From Micromonospora sp. NBC_01796 (GTDB lineage Bacteria > Actinomycetota > Actinomycetes > Mycobacteriales > Micromonosporaceae), in assembly GCF_035917455.1 (NCBI RefSeq), contig NZ_CP109078.1:6742001-6806000 (forward strand): a stretch of 64,000 nt of DNA, read 5' to 3'. The notes beneath the pieces were generated by a model. That model was not told the DNA's origin, did not search any database, and was given only the letters and a program-made list of their open reading frames with translations. Positions 7,135-24,897 of the stretch are shown piece by piece; position 1 is the stretch's first letter; each line of letters starts with the position of its first letter. Both the position numbers and the translations under genes were made by a program.

Positions 7135-8163
7135 ATGACTGAGCGTATGGCACAGGACACCGCCGGGCACCGCCGCCGCAAGCGGCCGACCATGCGGGAC
7201 GTGGCCCGGGAGGCCGGGGTGGCACTGCGTACCGTCTCGCGGGTGGTCAACGGTGACCCGACCGTCGGTCCGCACCTGGTCAGCCGGATCCGGGCGGCCA
7301 TCACCGCGCTCGACTACGAGCCCGACGAGCGGGCCCAGCAGTTGCGCCGGGGGGTCAGCGGGACCATCGGGGCGGCGGTCCGCAACCTCGCCGACGCCCA
7401 CCCGGTGCTCAGCGCCGTCGACCAGGCGGCGCGGGCCGCCCAGCTCACCGTCCTGGCGATGTCGACCGAGGACGAGGAGCAGCGCGAGCGCGAGGCGGTG
7501 ATGTCCATGTGCCGCCGCCGGGTGGACGGCATCATCCTGGAGCCGATCAGCGTCACCCACCAGTACCTGGCCGCGGAGGTCGCGGCCGGAATGCCGCTGG
7601 TCGCGGTGGACCGGCCGACCGGTGGGCTGGCCGCCGACACCGTGCTCTCGGACAACGCCGGCGGCATCGGCCTGGCCTTCCGCCACCTGGTCCAGCACGG
7701 TCACCAGCGGATCGCCTACATCGGCGACCACGAACGGATCTTCACCGGCCGGGAACGGGCCGCCGCCTTCCGGGCCTGTGTCACGGCGCACGGCGGCCCG
7801 CTGGACGGCATGGTGCACCCCGGCGCACTCGAACCGGCCCGGATCGCCGCCGCGCTGGAGACCGCCCTCGGTGGCCCGGCGCCGGCGACCGCGCTGATCA
7901 CCGGCAACGCCACCGCCACGGTGGAGGTGCTCCGGCGGCTCGGCGCCGACGCCGGCCGGCTCGCCCTGGTCGGCTTCGACGACTTCCTCCTCGCGGACCT
8001 GCTCCGCCCGGCACTCACCGTGGTGGCGCAGGACAGCGCCGCGATCGGGCGGACCGCGATAGAGCTGCTCCTGGCCCGGTCCGCCGACCCCTCCCGGCCG
8101 GTACAGAGCGTGACCGTGCCGGTGGAGTTGATCCCGCGCGGTTCCGGCGAGCTGCGCCCGTAG
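7135..8163 (+). CDS. LacI-family transcriptional repressor
   Basis: 342 residues. The N-terminal helix-turn-helix covers residues about 20-70 (MRDVAREAGVALRTVSRVVN), including the hinge segment that inserts into the centre of the operator. A periplasmic-binding-like sensor domain follows (VDGIILEPIS, LITGNATATVEVLRRLG, LALVGFDDF). It is divergent from the sugar importer, and matching palindromes lie on both sides of the gene. The simplest reading is a local repressor of the importer/hydrolase operon, itself, and the downstream CocE-type hydrolase, relieved by a sugar. The ATG at 7135 is preferred; an ATG four codons later is also possible. Confidence 0.93.
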   Translation: MTERMAQDTAGHRRRKRPTMRDVAREAGVALRTVSRVVNGDPTVGPHLVSRIRAAITALDYEPDERAQQLRRGVSGTIGAAVRNLADAHPVLSAVDQAARAAQLTVLAMSTEDEEQREREAVMSMCRRRVDGIILEPISVTHQYLAAEVAAGMPLVAVDRPTGGLAADTVLSDNAGGIGLAFRHLVQHGHQRIAYIGDHERIFTGRERAAAFRACVTAHGGPLDGMVHPGALEPARIAAALETALGGPAPATALITGNATATVEVLRRLGADAGRLALVGFDDFLLADLLRPALTVVAQDSAAIGRTAIELLLARSADPSRPVQSVTVPVELIPRGSGELRP

Positions 8164-13902: not shown

Positions 13903-15093
13903 ATGCACGTCCTGATGACGGCGGCGGGCAGACGTACCGAGCACTGGACCGAACTGTTCGCCGCGCTCTGTGACCGGCCCGAGGTCACGCTCACGGTGCT
14001 CGCGGCCGACGTCTCGGCGTCGACCCACCGGCGCCTGGACCGGTTGGCCCGGTTACGACCGAACCTGCGCTACCACCTGGTGTCGCACCTGCTGGGCGAG
14101 CACCGGACCGGGCACCTGGCATCGGGGCTGTTCCGACCGGGAACCGGCCGGCGGCTCGGCGGCCGGCACCCGGACGTCGTACACGTCATCGGGGAGGCCA
14201 CGTACCTGACCAGCTGGCAGGCCATCCGGATGCGGCAGCGACACTGGCCCACCGCACCGCTCACCCTGTACGCGGCGCAGAACGTCGTGACGCGGTTCCC
14301 GGTGCCGTTCCCGCGACTCGAACGGCAGGCGTACGACAGCATCGACCACGCCTTCCCGATCACTCCGGCGGCGCTCGGGGTGCTGCGCGCCAGGGGATAC
14401 CGGGGGCCGGCGACGATCGTCCCGCTCGGGGTCGACACCGCCCTGTTCCGGCCCCGTCCGGCGACCCGACCGCAGGCGCGACGGTTCACCGTGGGTTTTG
14501 TCGGCCGGCTGGAGCCGTACAAGGGCGTGCACGACCTGCTCCGGGCCGTGGATCTGCTCGACTGCGACCTGCTGGCGGTCGGCGGCGGCAGCCTGTATCC
14601 GGAGATCGAGCGGACCGCCGCCCGTCGACCGGGCCGGATCAGCCTCGCCGGCTGGACCGACCACGCCGACCTGCCGGAACTGTTGTCCCGGATGGACGTG
14701 CTGGTCCTGCCCTCGATCGAGGTGATCCGGCGCGGCCCGCTGCGGTGGACCGGTGTCCCGCAGCGGGAGCAGTTCGGCCGGGTGCTGCTGGAGGCGATGG
14801 CGTGCGGCGTACCGGTCGTCGGCAGCGAGGTGGGCGAGATCCCGTACGTGATCGGCCCTGCCGGTCTGACCTATCCCGCCGGTGACGTGGTGGCCCTGGC
14901 CGACCGGCTCGCCGCGCTGCGTGACCATCCCGACCTCGCCCGACAGTTGGCCGGCCGGGGGTTACGCCGGGCCACCGACGAGTTCAGCTGGGCGGGAACC
15001 GCCGATGGCATGTACCACGTCTGGCAGGAGTTGACCGGCGCCGGGCGGCAGTTGGCCACCGCCCGAGGACCCGATCGGCCCACCGGGCCGTGA
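13903..15093 (+). CDS. Glycosyltransferase family 4
   Basis: 396 residues from the ATG at 13903, preceded by GAAAGG. It has the GT-B fold: the N-terminal acceptor half contains DVVHVIGEATYLTSWQAIRM, and the C-terminal donor half contains VPLGVDTALFRP, VGFVGRLEPYKGVHDLLRAV and the nucleotide-sugar motif EQFGRVLLEAMACGVPVV (E-x7-E). Family members transfer a sugar from a nucleotide donor with retention. The next gene, 68 bases on, is a TylF-type methyltransferase, so the pair may add a sugar and methylate it or its aglycone (inference). No signal or membrane segment is seen. Confidence 0.88.
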   Translation: MHVLMTAAGRRTEHWTELFAALCDRPEVTLTVLAADVSASTHRRLDRLARLRPNLRYHLVSHLLGEHRTGHLASGLFRPGTGRRLGGRHPDVVHVIGEATYLTSWQAIRMRQRHWPTAPLTLYAAQNVVTRFPVPFPRLERQAYDSIDHAFPITPAALGVLRARGYRGPATIVPLGVDTALFRPRPATRPQARRFTVGFVGRLEPYKGVHDLLRAVDLLDCDLLAVGGGSLYPEIERTAARRPGRISLAGWTDHADLPELLSRMDVLVLPSIEVIRRGPLRWTGVPQREQFGRVLLEAMACGVPVVGSEVGEIPYVIGPAGLTYPAGDVVALADRLAALRDHPDLARQLAGRGLRRATDEFSWAGTADGMYHVWQELTGAGRQLATARGPDRPTGP

Positions 15094-15161: not shown

Positions 15162-16025
15162 ATGACCGATTTCCTGTCCCCGGCGCAGGTCGCCGAGCCG
15201 ACCACCGACGATCCCCGTCAGCTCTACCTCGACCTGCTCAAGAAGACCCTGACCCGGTACGCCTTCGGGGAGACCTGGACCCCGTTCCAGCCCCGCCGCC
15301 GGTCGTTGCGGGGGGCGGTGTACCGCCGGGGCCAGCGGTTGCTGCACCAGCGGGGGATGGAGTTGGTGCTCCGCTTCCCGTTCGACGCGCAGGCGCGCGA
15401 GGTCGGCCGGGACTGCCCGCCGGACGCGGAGACCATGATCGGCCTGCACCGACTGGACAACCTGGAGCACTGCGTACGGGACGTGCTCGAACGCGGCGTG
15501 CCCGGTGACCTGATCGAGACCGGGGTGTGGCGTGGCGGCGCCTGCATCTTCATGCGCGCCATGCTCAAGGCGTACGGGGACCACGACCGTACGGTCTGGG
15601 TCGCGGACTCGTTCCGTGGCCTGCCCAAACCCGACCCGCGCCGGGTCGAGGACGTCGAGGACGCACTGTGGAGCGTGCCCGTCCTGGCGGTGTCGATGGA
15701 CCAGGTCAAGGGCAACTTCAGCCGGTACGGACTGCTCGACGACCAGGTCGGCTTCCTGCCCGGATGGTTCAAGGACACCCTGCCGACGGCACCCCTCGAC
15801 CGGATCTCCGTGATGCGCCTCGACGGCGACCTCTACGAGTCCACCGAGGTGGCGTTGCGGTCGCTCTACCCGAAGCTCTCCGTCGGCGGGTACGTCATCA
15901 TCGACGACTACCACGCCGTACGCGGCTGCCGCCAGGCCGTCGACGACTTCCGCGCCGAGTTCGGCATCACCGACGAACTCCGCCAGGTCGACTGGACCTG
16001 CCGCTACTGGCAACGCACCCGCTGA
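15162..16025 (+). CDS. TylF/MycF-family SAM-dependent O-methyltransferase
   Basis: 287 residues, ATG with GAAGGAA upstream. It matches macrocin O-methyltransferases: LYLDLLKKTLTRYAF near the N-terminus, the SAM-binding stretch DLIETGVWRGGACIFMRA, WVADSFRGLPKPDP, and the metal/catalytic region MRLDGDLYESTEVAL with VGGYVIIDDYH. TylF and MycF methylate a sugar hydroxyl of macrolides and require Mg. Many relatives lie in polysaccharide or glycolipid loci, so with the glycosyltransferase just upstream the target may be a glycan rather than an antibiotic. It ends 25 bases before a large inverted repeat. Confidence 0.88.
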   Translation: MTDFLSPAQVAEPTTDDPRQLYLDLLKKTLTRYAFGETWTPFQPRRRSLRGAVYRRGQRLLHQRGMELVLRFPFDAQAREVGRDCPPDAETMIGLHRLDNLEHCVRDVLERGVPGDLIETGVWRGGACIFMRAMLKAYGDHDRTVWVADSFRGLPKPDPRRVEDVEDALWSVPVLAVSMDQVKGNFSRYGLLDDQVGFLPGWFKDTLPTAPLDRISVMRLDGDLYESTEVALRSLYPKLSVGGYVIIDDYHAVRGCRQAVDDFRAEFGITDELRQVDWTCRYWQRTR

Positions 16026-16050: not shown

Positions 16051-16112
16051 GTCGATCTAGGGCAAATACGTGTGGTCGGAGATCAACAAGCGCGTATTTG
16101 CCCTAGGTCGAC
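16051..16112. repeat. Long inverted repeat between convergent genes, probable bidirectional terminator
   Basis: Arms at 16051-16070 and 16093-16112 match at 19 of 20 bases (core CTAGGGCAAATACG), with a 22-base loop. It lies between the TylF-like gene and the carrier-protein gene. The right arm contains the carrier-protein TAG stop (16103-16105) and its last codons. The arms are AT-richer than the surroundings and no T-run follows. Confidence 0.7.
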
Positions 16113-16363
16113 GAGCGCTGCGGGGTGAGTTGGGCGGCGAGGTCGTCGAGGGTGTTGAGGCCACGGCCGGTGCCGGAGAGGTCCAGCTCGACGTCGTACT
16201 CGTTCTCGATCGCGTCGATGAGCCGGAGCAGGCCCAGCGAGTCCACGCCCAGCGCGACCAGGGAGGCGCCGCTGACCAGCACGTCCTCGGTCCCGACCGC
16301 CCCGTCCGTGACCTCGTGGATCAGCTCGGCCAGCCGTCGGCGCAACCCGTCGTCCCCGGTCAT
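16103..16363 (-). CDS. Free-standing acyl/peptidyl carrier protein
   Basis: 86 residues. The 4'-phosphopantetheine site is Ser42 in LGVDSLGLLRL, within the usual four-helix carrier fold. The ATG overlaps the NRPS stop by four bases, so it is translationally coupled. Being separate from the C-A-T module, it probably carries the acyl group activated by the ligase at 19449 (inference). Its stop codon lies in the right arm of the inverted repeat. Confidence 0.9.
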   Translation of the reverse strand: MTGDDGLRRRLAELIHEVTDGAVGTEDVLVSGASLVALGVDSLGLLRLIDAIENEYDVELDLSGTGRGLNTLDDLAAQLTPQRSST

Positions 16364-19300
16364 CGTGGCGCCCCCGAACGTCGTACGAACTCGGCGATCT
16401 CCCCGATCGTCGGGGTGTCGAAAAATACGTCCAGCGGCACCTCCACGCCCAGGTGCTGGTGGATCCGGCCGCTGATCCGGGTGATCGTGAGCGAGTGACC
16501 GCCGAGGTCGAACAGGTCCTCGTCCAGACCGATCTCACCGATCTGGAGCACGTCCTGCCAGATCACCCGGATCCGCGCCACGACCTCGTCGGTGTCGCCG
16601 TCGGCCTCGGCCTCGGCGTCGGTCGGCGCGATCTGCGGGGTGGTGGCGCGTTCACGGGCCGGCTCGGGCAGCGCGGCCCGGTCCAGTTTCCCGTTCGGGG
16701 TGAGCGGCAACCGGTCCAGGAACACCCACGCGTTGGGCAGCATGGCGGCGGGCAGCGTCCGCGCCAGGTGCGTACGCAGTGTCGCCGGTTCGGGTGGGGC
16801 GCCCCTGGGCACCACGTACCCGACCAGCCGCGCCTCGGTCCCGTCGGCTCCGTCACCACGCAGCAGTACGGCCGCCGCGACGACGTCCGGATGTGCCGAC
16901 AGTCCCGCCTCGATCTCGCCCAGCTCGACCCGGTGCCCACGGATCTTCACCTGCTGGTCGGCCCGTCCGACGAAGTCGAGCCGACCGTCCGGCAGCCGGG
17001 TGACCAGGTCACCGGTGCGGTAGAGCCGCGCCGACCCGGCCCCGAACGGGTCGGGCAGGAAACGTTCGTCGGTGAGGTCGGGTTGGCGCAGGTAGCCGTC
17101 GGCCACGCCCCGACCACCGAGGTACAGCTCGCCCGGCACGCCCACCGGCAGCGGACGCAGGTGGTTGTCGAGCACGTACGCGCGGACGTTGGGCAGCGGT
17201 CGGCCGATCGTCACCCGGTCCGGGTGCTCGGGCAGTTCGGCGACGGTGGCGTAGATCGTCGCCTCGGTCGGCCCGTACCCGTTGAACAGGCGGGTGGTCC
17301 GACGCCGCAGCTCACGGGCGAGCGGCAGCGGCAGCGCCTCGCCTCCGGCGAGTGCCACGACCGGGAACCCCGGTTCCCGGCCGAGGCCCGCCTCGAGCAG
17401 GACCCGCCACCCGGACGGGGTCGCCTGGACGTGGGTGATCTCCTGGTCGCGGATCAGCCGGCAGACGGCCGCGCCGTCCGCGGCGTGGGTGTTCGACGCG
17501 ACCACCACCCGGGCGCCGGTCACCAGCGGCAGGAACACCTCGACGGCGGAGATGTCGAACGACAGCGAGGTCAGCCCGAGCCAGCGGTCGGCGGGTTCAC
17601 CGCCGAGCAGGTCCCGCAGGCCGAGCAGCAGGTTCGCCAGGGCGTCGTGGCGGACCGCGACGCCCTTCGGTCGACCGGTCGAGCCGGAGGTGTAGAGCAC
17701 GTAGGCGACGTCGCCCGGACCGGGCCGGGGTCCGGTCTCGGGGACCGTCGGGTCGGCGGGGTCGAGGTCGTCGACGGTGAGCACCGGTAGGTGCGGATCG
17801 AGCGCGGCGGCGGCCGACGCGGTGGCGATGACCAGCGCAGGGTCCGCGTCGGCGAGGATCATCGCCTGCCGGGTGGGCGGGTAGACCGGGTCGACCGGCA
17901 CGTATCCGGCGCCGCAGCGGAGCACCGCGAGCAGCGCCGCGACCGCCTGCCACGACCGGTCCAGGCAGACCGCGACCAGCCGGCCGGCACCGATTCCCCG
18001 CCCGCGCAACACCGCGGCGAGCCGGCCGCTGGTCGCGTCGAGTTCGGCGTACGTCAGCCGCCGGTCCCCGTCGACCACCGCGACCACGTCCGGGCGTTGC
18101 CGAACCTGGGCGGCGAAGAGCGCGGGGACAACCGCGTCGGCGGGGTAGTGGCGCTCGGTGCTGTTCCACCCGTGCACCAGATCCGACAGCTCACCGGGCG
18201 GGAGCAGGGGCACGGTCGGCATCGGCCGGTCCGGGTCGTCGACCACCGCCGACAGTACGGTCCGCAGGTGCGCCCCGATCCGGTTGACCGACTCCCGGTC
18301 GATCGCGGTCGGGCTGTGCTGGAGGCTGACGGTGACCGCGTCCGGACCGTCGACGATCTGTACGTGCAGCGCGTTGCGGGCCGTGTCGTTGAACATCGTC
18401 CACTCGACCGTGGTGTCCGGAACGGCGAAGTCCGGGGCGGGGCCGCGCCGCCGGTAACCGACCGACACCGGGGTCAACGCCGGAGCCGGGCGCAGCCCCC
18501 CGACCGCCTGCGCGAGCGGTACGTGGCGGAACCGGTACAGGTCGCGTACGCCGGTCCGGACCGCCCGCGCGTAGGCCCGGAACGTGGCCTCCGGTGCCGG
18601 CGGGTGCACCGGCAGTTCGTTGACGAAGAGCCCGACCTGCCCGGCGGTCGCGGCGGTACGGGTGGACAGCGCCACGCCGACCGGGAGGTTCGGGTTGCCG
18701 TACCGGTCCAGCAGGGTGTGCACCGCGGCGAGCAGCAGCTCGAAGCGGGTCACGCCGATGTCGTTGGCGGCACCGTCGACCCGGGCGACGAGGTCCGGGT
18801 CGAGTACGAATTCGACACTGGCACCGGGCTCGGCGGCGGTCGGCACCCGGTGCAGGCCGGGCAGCAGGACATCGCCGGGTGCCGACCACCGGGCGGCCCA
18901 GTGTTCCCGGGCACCGGCGAGATCGGCGGTGACCCGGTGCTGCTCGGCCGCCGCGTGCCCCGCGTACGGGTCGGGGGCGGGGCCGAAGTCGACCGGCTGG
19001 CCATCGACCGCCGCGCGGTACGCCGACGCCAGTTCGCCGAGCAGCACGTCCTTGGACATCCCGTCGAAGACCAGGTGGTGGGCGGTGACCAGGAGGAGGT
19101 GCTCGTCCGGTGCACCGGACAGCAGGGTGAACCGGGCCAGGGGTCCCCGGCGCAGGTCGAACGGTCGAGTGAGTTCCGCGCGGATCCGCCCGTCGGAAAG
19201 CTCGCCGGTGGTCAGCGCGAGTTTCTCCACGGCGGGGACGAGCCGGGGTACGCCCTCGGGGTCGGGTTCGACCGCCGTGCTCAGCACCTCGTGCCGGCCG

Positions 19301-19452
19301 ATGACGGCGGTGCACGCCTCGGTCAGCGCGTGGCGGTCGAGCCCCGCCCCGAACCGGACGCCGAGCGCCAGGTGGTACGCCGTGCCGGCCACTCCGGCCT
19401 GCTCGGTGAACCAGACGGCGTGTTGGGCGTACGTCGTCGCAGCGGTGTTCAC
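16360..19452 (-). CDS. Single-module nonribosomal peptide synthetase (C-A-T)
   Basis: 1030 residues from the GTG at 19452, overlapping the upstream ligase stop by four bases. The condensation domain (about 1-430) has an intact HHLVFDG motif, His125-His126 to Gly131. The adenylation domain (about 460-950) shows LYTSGSTGRPKG, SFDISAVEVF, NGYGPTEAT, YRTGDLV, VKIRGHRVELGEIEAGL and NGKLDRAAL. By eye the pocket code is D-I-V-Q-L-G-G-I-Y, near the glycine-type DILQLGLIW, so glycine or another small residue is the best guess. The carrier domain has Ser987 in DLGGHSL. There is no thioesterase, reductase or epimerase, so release must come from another protein. Confidence 0.93.
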   Translation of the reverse strand: MNTAATTYAQHAVWFTEQAGVAGTAYHLALGVRFGAGLDRHALTEACTAVIGRHEVLSTAVEPDPEGVPRLVPAVEKLALTTGELSDGRIRAELTRPFDLRRGPLARFTLLSGAPDEHLLLVTAHHLVFDGMSKDVLLGELASAYRAAVDGQPVDFGPAPDPYAGHAAAEQHRVTADLAGAREHWAARWSAPGDVLLPGLHRVPTAAEPGASVEFVLDPDLVARVDGAANDIGVTRFELLLAAVHTLLDRYGNPNLPVGVALSTRTAATAGQVGLFVNELPVHPPAPEATFRAYARAVRTGVRDLYRFRHVPLAQAVGGLRPAPALTPVSVGYRRRGPAPDFAVPDTTVEWTMFNDTARNALHVQIVDGPDAVTVSLQHSPTAIDRESVNRIGAHLRTVLSAVVDDPDRPMPTVPLLPPGELSDLVHGWNSTERHYPADAVVPALFAAQVRQRPDVVAVVDGDRRLTYAELDATSGRLAAVLRGRGIGAGRLVAVCLDRSWQAVAALLAVLRCGAGYVPVDPVYPPTRQAMILADADPALVIATASAAAALDPHLPVLTVDDLDPADPTVPETGPRPGPGDVAYVLYTSGSTGRPKGVAVRHDALANLLLGLRDLLGGEPADRWLGLTSLSFDISAVEVFLPLVTGARVVVASNTHAADGAAVCRLIRDQEITHVQATPSGWRVLLEAGLGREPGFPVVALAGGEALPLPLARELRRRTTRLFNGYGPTEATIYATVAELPEHPDRVTIGRPLPNVRAYVLDNHLRPLPVGVPGELYLGGRGVADGYLRQPDLTDERFLPDPFGAGSARLYRTGDLVTRLPDGRLDFVGRADQQVKIRGHRVELGEIEAGLSAHPDVVAAAVLLRGDGADGTEARLVGYVVPRGAPPEPATLRTHLARTLPAAMLPNAWVFLDRLPLTPNGKLDRAALPEPARERATTPQIAPTDAEAEADGDTDEVVARIRVIWQDVLQIGEIGLDEDLFDLGGHSLTITRISGRIHQHLGVEVPLDVFFDTPTIGEIAEFVRRSGAPR

Positions 19453-20990
19453 GGGCCCTCCGAGGGGTGGCGGTGCGGGGTCGTCCGGGTCTGTTCGAGT
19501 TGGCCGACCAGTTGGCGTTTGAGCACCTTGCCGGCCTCGTTGCGGGGTAGCTGGTCGAGCACCAGTAGGCGGGTCGGAAGCTGGTAGTCGGCGAGTCGCG
19601 TGGTGAGGAAGGCGCGCAGCGCGGGCAGGGAGAGGTCGGCGGCCGGGGTCTGCGGGTGGGGGACCACCACGGCGGCCACGGTGCTGCCGAGCACCGGGTG
19701 CGGGATTCCGACGACGGCGGTCTCCGCGATCCCGGTGTGCTCGTACAGAGCGGCTTCGATCTCCAGGGTGGAGATCTTGAACGCGCCGGACTTCACCACG
19801 TCCTCGTGCCGGTCGGCGAGGTAGAGGTAGCCCTCGGCGTCCATCCGTCCGACGTCGCCCATCCGTACCCACTCGCCGTGGAAGGTCGCCCGGCTGGCCT
19901 GCTCGTCCCGGTAGTACGCGCGCGGGTGCCGGCACCGCAGCCAGACCTGCCCGGTGGCGCCCTCGGGCAGGGGGCGCCCCTGCTCGTCGGCGATCATCAG
20001 GGCGCCCGCGGCGGCCCGGCCGACGGCGTCCGGGCGGGCCGGGTTGAAGATCATCGTGGTCTGTGCGGGCGCCGCCTCGGTCGAGGTGTAGTAGTTGACG
20101 ATCACCGCGTTCGGGAACGCGGTGGCGAGCCGGGCGGCGACCGCCGGGGCCAGCGGCGCGGCCGTCGACCCGATCAACTGCACCCCGGAGGTGTCCCGTC
20201 CGCCCAGCGCACCGGAGTTGAGCAGCTCGATCGCCATCGACGGGACGACAAAAACCGTTCCGGTGCCGGGGGATCCGATCAGCCGGGCGAACCGGGCCGG
20301 GGTGAACTGCGGCAGGGTCAACGCGGTCGGCTTGGCGGTGAGCGCGTTGAACAGCATCGTCTGGGCGGCGTTGGTGCCGATCGCGAACGCGTGCAGGAAC
20401 CGCTCGGAGTGCGCCAACGCCAGCCGTCGGGGATGGCTGGGTGCGGCCACGGTCAGGTTCGCGTGGGTCGCCCCGACACCCTTCGGCCGGCCGGTCGTCC
20501 CGGAGGTGTAGAGGATCTGGGCCAGGTCCCCGGGACGTACGACGGGGCCGGGGTGCGGTTGTGGTGCCGCCGTACCGGCCGCGACCAGTTCGGCGACGGT
20601 GGCGACCCGTACCGGCGCTGCTGCCGGCGTCGTACCGGGGCCGTGGATCAGGGTGGTGGCCGCGCAGTGCTCCAACGCCTGCCGTACCTGGGTGGCGGCG
20701 AGCCGGTCGGAGAGGGGAACGGCGACCCCGCCGGCACGCTGCACCCCGCAGTACGCGACCGCGAAGTCCACCCAGTCCGGTGCACCGAAGAGCAGCCCGA
20801 CCCGGTCACCGGCACCCAGTCCGCGTTGCCGGAGTGCGGTGGCCACCGCACTCGCGCCCGCGTCCCATTCGGCGAAGGTGAGCGTCGCGACCTGGTGCAC
20901 CTCGATCGCCACCCGGTCCGGATGCACGGCCGCCCGCCAACTCAACACCTCGGGTACGGTCCGGCCGGCGGATGCGCCGTCGTTTGTCAC
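19449..20990 (-). CDS. AMP-dependent acyl-activating ligase
   Basis: 513 residues from the GTG at 20990. It is an ANL-superfamily adenylating enzyme: P-loop ILYTSGTTGRPKGVG, YYTSTEAAP for the aromatic/TE motif, the hinge region MGDVGRMDAEGYLYLADRHE, and the C-terminal catalytic Lys in LPRNEAGKVLKRQ. It is closer to medium/long-chain acyl-CoA or acyl-ACP ligases than to amino-acid adenylation domains. First in the coupled operon ligase-NRPS-carrier, it probably loads a carboxylic acid on the free carrier protein for condensation with the NRPS amino acid (inference). Confidence 0.88.
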   Translation of the reverse strand: MTNDGASAGRTVPEVLSWRAAVHPDRVAIEVHQVATLTFAEWDAGASAVATALRQRGLGAGDRVGLLFGAPDWVDFAVAYCGVQRAGGVAVPLSDRLAATQVRQALEHCAATTLIHGPGTTPAAAPVRVATVAELVAAGTAAPQPHPGPVVRPGDLAQILYTSGTTGRPKGVGATHANLTVAAPSHPRRLALAHSERFLHAFAIGTNAAQTMLFNALTAKPTALTLPQFTPARFARLIGSPGTGTVFVVPSMAIELLNSGALGGRDTSGVQLIGSTAAPLAPAVAARLATAFPNAVIVNYYTSTEAAPAQTTMIFNPARPDAVGRAAAGALMIADEQGRPLPEGATGQVWLRCRHPRAYYRDEQASRATFHGEWVRMGDVGRMDAEGYLYLADRHEDVVKSGAFKISTLEIEAALYEHTGIAETAVVGIPHPVLGSTVAAVVVPHPQTPAADLSLPALRAFLTTRLADYQLPTRLLVLDQLPRNEAGKVLKRQLVGQLEQTRTTPHRHPSEGP

Positions 20991-21377
20991 GCGGTGTGCC
21001 TCAATTCGACGAAGACGCCAGAGGGCCTCCCCGTGTCACGGCCGCATCGTTGGTCTGTTGGTCGGTCAGCGGTTCGCCGTACCGTCGCTCAGTGTTAGGT
21101 CGGCGTTCCGATTCGCAGTGTGCCCGCTGCGGCCGGTGGCGGGGATCGGCCGAACGGGGCAGCGGATTGGAACCGAAACACTGATGCCCTCCACATAGGA
21201 CGAATTCGCCGGGAACGCGCTTTCCTTTGTCTGCGCGCACGAGCAGGGGAGCGGCACCCGGCGGCGGAACCGGCCGCTGGCGATAACATCTGGCACCGGA
21301 CGATCCCGTGCCGCAGCCACCCGTGGCCGTCACGCACCGACCGTCCGGGCCGTACGGAAACGTCGTTGGAGGAGCGC
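20991..21377. other. Divergent promoter region of the NRPS locus
   Basis: 387 bases separate the ligase start from the divergent condensation-fold gene. It should hold both promoters. I see no convincing long palindrome, repeat or extra gene. Confidence 0.5.
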
Positions 21378-22817
21378 ATGAGGCGGGTGGCGGAACCGGT
21401 CGGCTCCGAGTCGGAGCACCTGGTCCACGCCGACTTCACCGGCGGTCGTGCCGGAACCGCGCCGGTGACCTGGGGCCAGCGTTCCATGTGGTGGACCATG
21501 GACGACTTCCGGTCACGCAACAGTTTCCTCAACCTCTGCCGGGTGGTGACCGTGCCCCGGCGCTCTCCGGCGGACGTACCGCACGTGGCCGAGGTGATCG
21601 GCACTCTGGTCACCCGGCACGAGTCACTGCGGACGCGGGTACGCCCCGTCGACGGCGAGCTGCGGCAGGAGGCGTACGCCTCCGGGCGGCTACCGCTGCT
21701 CGTGGTCGACGCCGACGCCCGGCGTACCGATGACCCGGACGGGCCCGACGACGACGGCGCCGGGCTCGCCGCCCAGGTGTGCGAACGGCTGGGCCGCGTT
21801 CCGTTCGACCACACCGAGGAGTGGCCCCTGCGGGTGGCCCTGGTGGTGGTCGGCGGCCGGGTACGCCGGATCGTGCTCGTGCTCAGCCACTCCACGGTGG
21901 ACTTTCACGCCACCGAGACCGTGCTGCGCGACCTGCGCCTCCTGCTGGTACGCGGCAGGATCGACACCCCGCCGGGCCTCCAGTCGATCGACCTGGCCCG
22001 CCGGGAGGCCGGGGCGCAGCGCCGTCGCTCGGACCGGGCGATCTCCTACTGGACCAAGCAGTTCGGGAGCCTGCCGGAGGGTGGGTTCGCGGCGACCGGC
22101 CCGGCGCACACCCCTCGGTACCGGGGACTGACGATGGTCTCCGAGGCGGTCGACCTGGCCAGCCGGATGATCGCCGCCCGGCACCGGGTCAGCACCTCCA
22201 CCGTGCTGCTCGCCGCGACCGCCGCGCTGACCGTCGGCGGGGACGAAGCCCTCCGCTGCGGGCTGGTCAGCATGGCGAACAACCGTTTCCAGCCCGGACA
22301 CGACGACGCGGTGGCCAAGCTCAACCAACTCGCCCTCATCGCCGTCGACCTCGCCGACCGGCCGTCCTTCGCCGGGCTGTTGCCCCGGGCCGGGCAGGCC
22401 GCGATGGACGGTTACCGGCACGCGTACTACGACCCGCCCGCGATGCGGCGCGCCTTCGGCGAACTGGGGCTCGACTACCTCACCATGCTCGGCCCGTACT
22501 GCCTGGTCAACGACATCCGGCTGCCCGGCGATCCCGGTGCCGCCGGCCCGGATCTCGACGAGCGGGCGCTGCGGGCGACCCTGACCCGGACCACGCTCAC
22601 CTGGTCCGAGCCGGCGAACAAGTTCGTCTGGCGGTGCCGCCTCCAGATGGTCGACGCGCCCCGCGCGGTCGGCCTCGTCCTCACCATCGACACCTGTTAC
22701 CTGCCGCCGGACCGGGCCGTGGCGCTGCTGCACGACATGGAGGAGCTGCTGGTCCGGGCGGCGGTCGATGAGGTCCCGTGGCCCTGGCGGCCGGGTGGGG
22801 GAGTGGCCACGCCCTGA
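21378..22817 (+). CDS. Stand-alone condensation-domain-fold protein
   Basis: 479 residues from the ATG at 21378, with GGAGGAG four bases upstream. The N-terminal half has condensation-domain features (VTWGQRSMWW, VIGTLVTRHESLRTRV). The catalytic HHxxxDG motif reads SHSTVDF (His171, Asp175): the second His and the Asp are kept, the first His is Ser and the Gly is Phe. The second half continues the fold (STSTVLLAATAALTVGG, YLTMLGPYCLVNDIRLPG). Free C-domain enzymes can join a carrier-bound acyl or peptide to a soluble amine or alcohol, so this is the best candidate for product release from the NRPS module. The altered motif may instead mean a binding or structural role. Confidence 0.75.
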   Translation: MRRVAEPVGSESEHLVHADFTGGRAGTAPVTWGQRSMWWTMDDFRSRNSFLNLCRVVTVPRRSPADVPHVAEVIGTLVTRHESLRTRVRPVDGELRQEAYASGRLPLLVVDADARRTDDPDGPDDDGAGLAAQVCERLGRVPFDHTEEWPLRVALVVVGGRVRRIVLVLSHSTVDFHATETVLRDLRLLLVRGRIDTPPGLQSIDLARREAGAQRRRSDRAISYWTKQFGSLPEGGFAATGPAHTPRYRGLTMVSEAVDLASRMIAARHRVSTSTVLLAATAALTVGGDEALRCGLVSMANNRFQPGHDDAVAKLNQLALIAVDLADRPSFAGLLPRAGQAAMDGYRHAYYDPPAMRRAFGELGLDYLTMLGPYCLVNDIRLPGDPGAAGPDLDERALRATLTRTTLTWSEPANKFVWRCRLQMVDAPRAVGLVLTIDTCYLPPDRAVALLHDMEELLVRAAVDEVPWPWRPGGGVATP

Positions 22818-22941
22818 CCCCGTCGGGCGGGGCACCGTTCACAATCCCGGCCACCGGTTCGCCACGACCGGCGGCTAGGTTGAGCTGATGCATGATCGTC
22901 TCGGGCCGGAGATCCCGGCCGGTCCGGCGGGCCGGCGGTCG

Positions 22942-22977
22942 CGGGGCCCGAACCGGTGGCGGGGCCCGAACCGGTGC
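22942..22977 (+). repeat. Tandem 18-base duplication at the MFS start
   Basis: Two consecutive copies of CGGGGCCCGAACCGGTGG (22942-22959 and 22960-22977, one mismatch). The GTG start of the MFS gene lies in the first copy and an in-frame GTG in the second, so the duplication doubles the possible start. Confidence 0.6.
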
Positions 22978-24200
22978 CGTTGGCCGAAGCGAGGGCGCGG
23001 CCCGAAGCGGTGGCGCCGTCGACCCGGCCGCCGGTGACGATCCGCTCCCTCGGGCCGACCGTCTACCTGCCGACCGTCATCTACAGCCTCGGACAGGGCG
23101 CGGTCGCCCCGGTGGTCGTACTCTCCGGCACCGCCCTCGGCGCCTCGGCCAGCGCCGCCAGCGTCCTGGTCGGCCTGATCGGCGTCGGGCAGATCGTCGG
23201 CGCCGTACCGGCGGGAGCGTTGATCGCCCGGATCGGCGAGCGGCCGGCGATGGTCTGGTCCACCGCCCTGGTGGTGCCGGCACTGCTCGCCTGTGTCTTC
23301 GCCACCTCCGTCTGGACGCTCGGTGTCGCGGTGGCCGGGATCGGGCTGGTCGGCGCCGTCTGGGGAGTGGCCCGGCAGGCGTACGTCACCGAGGTGGTGC
23401 CGTACGAGCTGCGCGCCCGTGCCCTGTCCACCCTCGGCGGGGCGGGCCGGATCGGCGCCTTCATCGGCCCCTTCGTCGGGGCGGCGACGATGACGGTGGT
23501 CGGCACCGACGGCGCGTACTGGGTGCACGTGGTCGCCGCCACCGTGGCGGTGACAGTGCTGCTCGTCCTGCCCGCCCTCCCGGTCGACCGGGCACCCGGT
23601 ACGGCACCGGCGAAGGTCCGTACGCTCGCCGTCGTCCGCGACAACCTCGCGGTGCTGCGGACCCTGGGCCTCGGGGTCCTCCTGGTCGGGGCCCTGCGCG
23701 CGTCGCGCCAGACGGTGATTCCGCTGTGGGGAGCCCACCTCGACCTGGACCCGGCGACGCTCAGTCTCGTCTTCGGGGTCTCCGGCGCGGTCGACATGCT
23801 GCTGTTCTATCCGGCAGGGCGGGCGATGGACCGGTGGGGGAGGCGGGTCGTCGCGATCCCGTCGATGTTCCTGCTCGGGCTGGCGCACGCGCTGCTGCCG
23901 CTGGCCACGACCGTTGTCGGCCTCGCGGCGGTGGCGATGCTGATGGGGCTGGGCAACGGCCTGAGCAGCGGACTGATCATGACCCTCGGCGCGGACGTGT
24001 CACCGGTGGTCGGCCGGGCTCAGTTCATCGGTGCGTGGCGGCTCTGCGCGGACCTCGGCAACGGCGGCGGGCCGCTGCTGATCGCCGCGGTACTGACGAT
24101 CGGGCCGCTGACCGCCGCCGTGTTGACCATGGCCGGGGTGGGTGCGGCGGCGGTCGCCGTGCTGCACAGGTGGACCCCGAGACCGGCGGTGGTCGACTAG
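22956..24200 (+). CDS. MFS transporter, likely exporter of the NRPS product
   Basis: 414 residues, about 12 membrane helices after a Pro/Glu/Ala-rich leader. Motif-A-like loops include GALIARIGERPAM and GRAMDRWGRR; VPYELRARALSTLGGAGRIG and GAWRLCADLGNGGGP are typical of drug-efflux MFS proteins. GTG at 22956 is chosen because the frame has no ATG upstream before a stop; its ribosome site is weak. It lies 138 bases after the condensation-fold gene in the same direction, so it probably exports the product or gives self-protection (inference). Confidence 0.82.
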   Translation: MAGPEPVPLAEARARPEAVAPSTRPPVTIRSLGPTVYLPTVIYSLGQGAVAPVVVLSGTALGASASAASVLVGLIGVGQIVGAVPAGALIARIGERPAMVWSTALVVPALLACVFATSVWTLGVAVAGIGLVGAVWGVARQAYVTEVVPYELRARALSTLGGAGRIGAFIGPFVGAATMTVVGTDGAYWVHVVAATVAVTVLLVLPALPVDRAPGTAPAKVRTLAVVRDNLAVLRTLGLGVLLVGALRASRQTVIPLWGAHLDLDPATLSLVFGVSGAVDMLLFYPAGRAMDRWGRRVVAIPSMFLLGLAHALLPLATTVVGLAAVAMLMGLGNGLSSGLIMTLGADVSPVVGRAQFIGAWRLCADLGNGGGPLLIAAVLTIGPLTAAVLTMAGVGAAAVAVLHRWTPRPAVVD

Positions 24201-24288: not shown

Positions 24289-24897
24289 GTGCAGCGTGAC
24301 CATGTGGTGTTACGAGCCCGATCAGCGATGGCCGTACTCCTGGCCACCGTCCTGGTCGGGGCCGGCTGCGCCGACCGGGACGAGCCGGGTCCGGACCGGC
24401 AGACGCGCGTCGACCAGGCGTTGCAGCGGTACGCGGACGGGGCGCTCGGGAAGGATGGCGTCTCGACGACGCCGACCCGGCACCTGCTCGCCGGCACCGA
24501 CGAACTCGCCGGCGGCACCGAGGTCACCCTCTGGGTGACCGACCCCGTGGCGAGTTCCGAAACCACCCCTCGCTGTTACTACCTCGACCTGGAGGAGCAA
24601 AGTGGCTGGGTCAGCGGGTTCGGTGGCTGCGGCGGCACCGACGACCAGGTCACGCTCAACCGGAGCAACGAGATCGTGTTCGGCACGGTCGGCCGGTGGC
24701 CCGCCGCCACCGTCCGGATCAGCAGGGGCGGCCCGTCGACCGACATCACCGTGACCGGCGGCTGGTTCCTGGTGCCGAGCGGGCTGACCGGCGTCAGCGA
24801 CAGCAGCTACTCGATCGAGCTGGTCGACGCCGACGGCCGGACCATCTGCACCGTACGGAACCTGACCCCACCGGCGAGCGTCACGCCGGTGACCTGA
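24289..24897 (+). CDS. Putative secreted lipoprotein of unknown function
   Basis: 202 residues, GTG start with GGGGGAGG six bases before. The signal peptide ends in lipobox VGAGC, so it should be lipid-anchored outside the cell. The mature part is mostly beta-strand with paired cysteines (PRCYYLDLEEQ, FGGCGGTDD, RTICTVRN). I recognise no family. It lies 88 bases after the MFS gene, but nothing shows that it belongs to the NRPS locus. Confidence 0.7.
   Translation: MQRDHVVLRARSAMAVLLATVLVGAGCADRDEPGPDRQTRVDQALQRYADGALGKDGVSTTPTRHLLAGTDELAGGTEVTLWVTDPVASSETTPRCYYLDLEEQSGWVSGFGGCGGTDDQVTLNRSNEIVFGTVGRWPAATVRISRGGPSTDITVTGGWFLVPSGLTGVSDSSYSIELVDADGRTICTVRNLTPPASVTPVT

Follow-up and report, generated by a model that had tools for sequence, protein, structure and literature searches.

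The 64,000-nucleotide stretch of the Micromonospora sp. NBC_01796 genome analysed here (contig NZ_CP109078.1, positions 6,742,001 to 6,806,000; hereafter the window) carries a small nonribosomal peptide synthetase (NRPS) locus. An AMP-forming acyl ligase (LIG), a synthetase of one module (NRPS1) and a free carrier protein (CARR) lie divergent to the gene of a stand-alone condensation-fold (C-fold) enzyme. Comparison with related loci indicates that this is almost certainly a deletion derivative, from which a promoter-proximal synthetase gene, NRPS2, has been cleanly lost, the other genes being left intact. The best explanation overall, to which we assign a probability of roughly 0.5, is that a conserved NRPS cluster for an acyl-peptide has suffered a deletion in the window and is completed in trans. 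That the completing part is the paralogous gene pair NRPS3'-NRPS2' of the same genome is inferred with slightly less confidence.

In the proposed mechanism, the ligase would activate a carboxylic acid of probably fatty or aryl type and load it onto the free carrier, and NRPS1 would couple the carrier-bound acid to a small amino acid. The chain would then be passed in trans to the pair at 7.03 Mb, composed of NRPS3' (glycine code) and NRPS2' (aspartate-like code, followed by a thioesterase (TE) and a major facilitator superfamily (MFS) transporter domain). Release by the TE of NRPS2' would give an acyl-peptide with Asp at its end, to be exported by the fused MFS domain. The C-fold protein would serve the whole family as an accessory acyl-transfer enzyme instead of replacing the TE, and the cluster would represent one regulon split over three loci, at 6.54, 6.76 and 7.03 Mb. 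The locus shows that a pathway which looks minimal may be an edited version, so that a product predicted from it in isolation would be wrong. It also provides an example, open to testing, of a proposed assembly line whose parts lie at several places behind one uncommon upstream box; the cluster family itself is present in dozens of genomes of this bacterial family.

Loss of a synthetase gene

Directly 5' of the ligase gene, an extra gene of about 1850-2240 amino acids (aa), NRPS2, is present in 14 of 20 mapped loci, including those of the same-genus genomes G048 and G010. Its usual position in close relatives is between the C-fold gene and the ligase gene; from the window it is absent. In a coordinate check across 53 genomes, 29 of the 32 loci with a ligase identity of at least 69% had NRPS2 immediately 5' of the ligase gene. 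In two of the exceptions NRPS2 and the ligase fall on separate contigs; the window is the remaining one, so that among contiguous close loci the gene is gone in the window genome only. The wider set (ligase identity 50-68%) has NRPS2 directly upstream in only 8 of 40 loci; the arrangement is thus typical of the close subfamily, not universal. These counts are based on 72 ligase rows and 58 NRPS2 rows, both at 50% or more, weaker and second-fragment NRPS2 rows being omitted.

The junction itself is well defined. Window positions 20961-21305 align at 86% to the C-fold/NRPS2 intergenic region of G048, and the alignment of the ligase (513 aa; 19449-20990, minus strand) runs from window position 20977 inward. 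Homology on the NRPS2 side stops at the NRPS2 start codon (GTGAC) and ligase homology starts within the first ligase codons; the window ligase thus begins with what were the leader and start codon of NRPS2. The fusion of this leader and GTGAC to the N-terminal ligase codons lies at 20965-20992 (minus strand). The break is clean, the ligase is in frame, and the lost segment comprises about 5.6 kb relative to G048 (L045 8435-14001).

Domain order in NRPS2, established with Pfam on two tested proteins, is condensation-adenylation-thiolation-TE-MFS (C-A-T-TE-MFS), and the protein combines synthesis, release and, apparently, export. Such fusions are encoded at L048 7573-13254, L045 8435-13999 (called at 7862, the start being taken as 8435 from the three-species comparison), L068 13104-18659 and in relatives. 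No matching report of an MFS-fused NRPS was found in open-licence PubMed Central (PMC) texts, and a synthetase with its own transporter domain merits study.

The survey covered 300 genomes from the same bacterial family as the source, of which 93 gave C-fold matches at E 1e-30 or better and 77 ligase matches at E 1e-60 or better. The 20 mapped loci, 19 from other genomes and one from the source genome itself, were annotated with our own GC-frame caller, which misplaced some starts and missed some genes, namely the C-fold genes of L045 and L058 and the ligase genes of L059 and L112 (placed by homology search). Same-genus comparisons rest on three genomes: the window genome, G048 and G010. Ligase relatives of at least 50% identity with similar neighbours occur in Streptomyces, Kitasatospora, Amycolatopsis, Nonomuraea and Catenulispora.

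Architecture and linkage of the remaining genes

The five genes claimed by a first-pass annotation of the window are all present, with open frames and the domains ascribed to them. CARR (86 aa; 16103-16363, minus strand; PF00550/PP-binding, 1e-06), NRPS1 (1030 aa, GTG start; 16360-19452, minus strand; Condensation, AMP-binding and PP-binding, with no TE match) and the ligase are joined by 4-bp overlaps, carrier to NRPS1 and NRPS1 to ligase, and therefore likely form an operon, as had been proposed. A CARR homolog lies 3' of NRPS1 in most mapped loci. On the plus strand follow the C-fold gene (C-fold 1, about 21378-22817, PF00668) and an MFS transporter gene (22956-24200), the latter kept in two same-genus relatives (91% and 86%). 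The locus had been called minimal and thioesterase-less; no TE was indeed found in the ten window proteins scanned (Pfam, NCBIfam), but this is a derived state, reached by deletion of NRPS2.

Lack of conserved linkage between the two transcripts had been named in advance as evidence against the annotated set. Linkage proved to be conserved: the C-fold gene is found within 12 kb of the ligase in 30 of the 32 close loci, the remaining two having them on different contigs, and in 18 of 22 loci with a ligase identity of 57-68% (53 C-fold rows were used, generally the one on the ligase contig). The exporter fares differently as a member of a self-contained set, since among the 20 mapped loci it adjoins the C-fold gene only in the two same-genus ones.

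Paralogous parts elsewhere in the genome

At 7.03 Mb, 0.27 Mb from the window, the source genome encodes NRPS3' (C-A-T) followed by NRPS2' (C-A-T-TE-MFS). NRPS2' is 62% identical to the NRPS2 of G010. G048 contains both an ortholog of NRPS2' (90%) and the integrated NRPS2; in a tree NRPS2' clusters with its counterpart from genome G031 in a separate, fully supported clade. By these comparisons NRPS2' is a paralog of the lost gene. Both genes are under purifying selection, with ratios of nonsynonymous to synonymous substitution (dN/dS) of 0.16 for NRPS3' and 0.19 for NRPS2' (G000 versus G048). A simple relocation of NRPS2 was considered and ruled out: the source genome has no NRPS2 ortholog elsewhere, and its best match, NRPS2' at 62%, is represented in G048 in addition to the integrated gene and falls in the separate clade.

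A third locus, at 6.54 Mb, carries a second C-fold gene (C-fold2) and a C-A-T module with a Gly code. Over 3119 bp this NRPS shares 89.4% DNA identity with NRPS3'; the corresponding place in G048 and G010 lacks it. G031 has a single cluster, in which an MbtH-like gene (identified by eye), NRPS2', NRPS3 and a C-fold gene are divergent to LIG-NRPS1-CARR. Its NRPS, ligase, carrier and C-fold parts are those scattered over the window, 7.03 Mb and 6.54 Mb in the source genome. It is conceivable, if somewhat less than an even bet, that the cluster was broken up by duplication and complementary clean deletions, all parts remaining marked by the box described below. The initiation half (ligase, carrier, first module and C-fold) would then have stayed at 6.76 Mb, the terminating half (Gly module and Asp-TE-MFS module) would act from 7.03 Mb, and 6.54 Mb would hold a fragment with a C-fold gene and a Gly module.

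The source genome also encodes, at 8.00 Mb (L070 2517-16808), another paralogous line, in which a ligase-like part is fused to additional NRPS sequence and accompanied by three more NRPS genes. Ligase relatives at this level (55-57%) are present in G010 and G048.

A shared upstream box

Comparison of upstream regions revealed a 16-bp box with the pattern GGGATCGGCCRAWYGG. Exactly three sites match it in the 8.56-Mb genome: one 5' of C-fold2 at 6.54 Mb, one in the gap between ligase and C-fold 1 (GGGATCGGCCGAACGG, 21142-21157, plus strand) and one 5' of NRPS3'-NRPS2'. In 40 genomes, 20 with the cluster and 20 without a close ligase, 20 exact sites were found and none for the reversed pattern. 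Sixteen of the 20 are upstream of the same gene family and the other four inside unrelated called genes. Six of these 16 are in g16 genomes, which gave no input to the pattern, and one is 5' of an orphan C-fold gene in G010. If the proposal is true, the box could help locate missing parts of split clusters that seem separate or incomplete.

Among 36 called C-fold genes, nine have an exact box near the start and eight more a box with one or two mismatches, although two of the six two-mismatch sites (L081, L082) are within the C-fold coding sequence, and the exact boxes of L045 and L110 were overlooked owing to wrong gene calls. One thousand random controls, drawn from the same loci with the true sites included, gave 12 exact, 5 one-mismatch and 11 two-mismatch matches. 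C-fold genes with no NRPS in their 20-kb stretch were seen in L109 (8040-9467), L110 (12212-14083) and L116 (7871-9547), each with an exact box near its start, which suggests that their products may act in trans. An imperfect palindrome, GGAACGCGCTTTCC, is located at 21212-21225 (plus strand) of the window. The perfect palindrome GGAAAGCGCTTTCC directly follows the box in L060 (about 8564), L114 (about 8628) and L115 (about 14087), and resembles a LacI-family operator.

Several points weigh against completion in trans. The box pattern was derived from five of the box-bearing loci. With one mismatch allowed, eight further sites appear in the genome (one for the reversed pattern), and a two-mismatch match is expected by chance in 64 kb (0.83). 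The exact box is missing at the cluster in 9 of the 20 cluster genomes, eight of which have none at all, and the box of the NRPS3'-NRPS2' pair in G048 has two mismatches. A shared box may also reflect promoter descent from one ancestral C-fold promoter and not joint action. In G048, the pair coexists with the integrated NRPS2 and may have a role of its own. The deletion is known from one genome and could be too recent for signs of decay. The hand-over from NRPS1 to NRPS3' or NRPS2' is a predicted step, which we consider marginally less probable than its absence.

The C-fold enzyme and release of the product

The first-pass annotation had proposed a self-contained pathway, in which the C-fold enzyme, replacing a release domain, transfers the acyl-aminoacyl thioester of NRPS1 onto a soluble amine or alcohol to give an N-acyl amino-acid amide or ester. 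Whether the locus was self-sufficient from the outset or became so once NRPS2 was lost, we regard this as unlikely, although it is the strongest of the alternatives. The enzyme, at the edge of its family (PF00668, 32.4 bits against a cut-off of 30.6), carries the motif SHSTVDF; among the C-domain motif residues, the second His and the Asp are kept in all 36 aligned C-fold domains, with Ser at the first motif position in 29 of 36. Its best sequence match in the PDB (phmmer) is the enacyloxin chain-release C domain 6cgo, weak at 32 bits (E 4.8e-07; next match 0.016), and the A1 profile finds SgcC5 (1.8e-13) besides 6cgo (2.1e-12). Release of this kind is chemically reasonable, with precedents in OaaC (PMC13142362) and the pyrrolamides (PMC4047045). 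In four loci (L060, L112, L114 and L115), moreover, a C-fold gene and LIG-NRPS1-CARR are accompanied by a stand-alone C gene, while a neighbouring TE gene was not observed. Three of the four also have a glycosyltransferase of 391-392 aa, MGT-type-like by eye; the fourth stretch ends earlier.

However, the C-fold gene coexists with the TE-bearing NRPS2 in 29 of 30 contiguous close loci, the thirtieth being the window. Having evolved and been kept beside TE-bearing synthetases, it does not have release as its obvious role, and the genome also encodes, behind the same box, the TE-bearing paralogs at 7.03 Mb. A profile built from seven relatives also ranks ordinary PCP-C domains (peptidyl carrier protein-condensation; 8fx7) above SgcC5 and 6cgo. 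The structure model is poor (mean predicted local distance difference test score 64, predicted template modelling score 0.56), and all 50 Foldseek matches listed for it are condensation-domain family chains; it gives a fold assignment and says nothing of mechanism. L049, L050, L051, L052, L053 and L054 have a C-fold protein of 945-977 aa built as a C-C tandem, both halves carrying a motif of SHxxxD type.

Selection on the remaining genes

That the locus is a recent remnant, with no product or only an acyl-amino acid leaking out through hydrolysis, is less likely again. In favour of a remnant, the gene for the terminal module and TE has been lost, and only in the window genome among contiguous close loci. 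In the three-species comparison, dN/dS on the window branch slightly exceeds that of the G048 branch for the glycosyltransferase beside the carrier (0.36 versus 0.29) and for a small hypothetical gene at 24289 (0.63 versus 0.41). The core genes, whose frames are all open, give the opposite picture: on the window branch the values are 0.25 for the carrier, 0.25 for NRPS1, 0.18 for the ligase and 0.28 for the C-fold gene, against 0.31, 0.27, 0.36 and 0.31 on the G048 branch. The MFS gene (0.12 versus 0.16) and a neighbouring alcohol dehydrogenase gene (0.04 versus 0.10) were also compared. The core genes are under purifying selection and relaxed constraint was not detected, although a recent deletion would leave no signal; the ligase, too, was left in frame behind a start codon, with the box intact.

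An assembly error, by which NRPS2 collapsed out of the sequence, is very improbable: NRPS genes are repetitive and the nearest copy is a paralog, but the genome is one contig with 99.94% completeness, the paralog is only about 62% identical, and the junction is at two start codons, not within a long shared repeat.

Substrates and predicted product

The closest PDB relatives of the ligase are FadD13 and FadD5; because of this resemblance, its substrate is likely a fatty or aryl acid. The C domain of NRPS1 is closest to Txo2 (121.8 bits), the starter C domain of CDA reaching only 39.6 bits. A siderophore of the dihydroxybenzoate (DHB) type was rejected: the ligase scores FadD13 above salicylate/DHB ligases, and no DHB genes were noticed among the scanned neighbours.

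The adenylation (A) domain code of NRPS1 is DIVQLGGIYK in the window and the Gly-type DILQLGVIWK in several other genera, and because of this deviation the amino acid of the window enzyme is uncertain. NRPS3' has the code DILQLGVIWK and NRPS2' the code DFTKLGHVGK; for comparison, DILQLGMIWK is given as Gly and DLTKVGHVGK as Asp/Asn in PMC12283262. The codes suggest that NRPS3' and the NRPS1 of several other genera activate Gly, and NRPS2 and NRPS2' Asp. With the module order we deduce, the complete close cluster would yield an acyl-dipeptide with a terminal Asp, and the split form that includes NRPS3' would make an acyl-tripeptide. No product assigned to the cluster family was found in open-licence PMC texts, few of the queries being worded to meet it, and the excerpts of PMC7888443 and PMC4351081 do not describe the cluster.

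Related clusters of Kitasatospora and Streptomyces (L081-L085) combine NRPS3, NRPS2, an MbtH gene, a carrier and a C-fold gene with a gene of 633-647 aa carrying a DMFA2_C domain (Pfam was run for MbtH and DMFA2_C on L081 only). Their NRPS2 codes, DVWHISLVDK or DVWHVSLVDK, we take to be of the Ser type.

Comparison with known systems

Rhodochelin is reportedly a case of cross-talk between clusters, one NRPS pathway being encoded at separate loci. The present case differs in that the separated parts are homologous pieces of a single type of cluster, with one rare upstream box.

In daptomycin-type initiation (fatty acyl-AMP ligase (FAAL) DptE, free acyl carrier protein (ACP) DptF and a C-III domain; PMC9113097), an AMP ligase and a free carrier likewise feed the first C-A-T module, and in the window, too, ligase and free carrier adjoin the NRPS. 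The complete relatives of the locus share a C-A-T-TE protein with this type. They differ in that the line is short, with one to three modules, and in that the MFS domain is fused behind the TE; the PDB matches of the window proteins favour FadD13/FadD5 and Txo2.

The pyrrolamide pathway of Streptomyces netropsis (PMC4047045) likewise employs a free PCP, free C domains and an NRPS; its genes are in two discrete clusters, and a free-standing C domain is proposed to release the intermediates. The complete relatives of the window locus, in contrast, have a TE. No pyrrole-type genes came to notice when ten window proteins were scanned (Pfam, NCBIfam), no homology search having been aimed at them.

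The fatty acid amide pathway OaaA/ACP/OaaC also has a ligase, a free carrier and a stand-alone C enzyme with a non-canonical motif, OaaC (PMC13142362) linking free amines with fatty acids carried by the ACP. Both C enzymes conserve the second His and the Asp. The OaaC-type pathway comprises only free-standing A, ACP and C, whereas a C-A-T module is present here, and the window motif SHSTVDF does not fit (D/H)HxxxD(S/A); the distant C-fold homolog L062 has DHCATDA. The enacyloxin C domain Bamb_5915 (PDB 6cgo) is likewise a stand-alone C acting with a separate carrier, and has a beta-hairpin docking element (PMC13324335).

Flanking genes

The carrier side of the window locus is flanked by genes of a GT4-type glycosyltransferase (13903-15093, plus strand) and a TylF-family O-methyltransferase (15162-16025, plus strand), which are possibly tailoring genes. 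The O-methyltransferase gene is kept in G048 and does not adjoin the carrier in G010. The glycosyltransferase gene adjoins the carrier in G010 as well, and in G048 it is found behind TylF and one further called gene; it is thus near the carrier in all three same-genus genomes.

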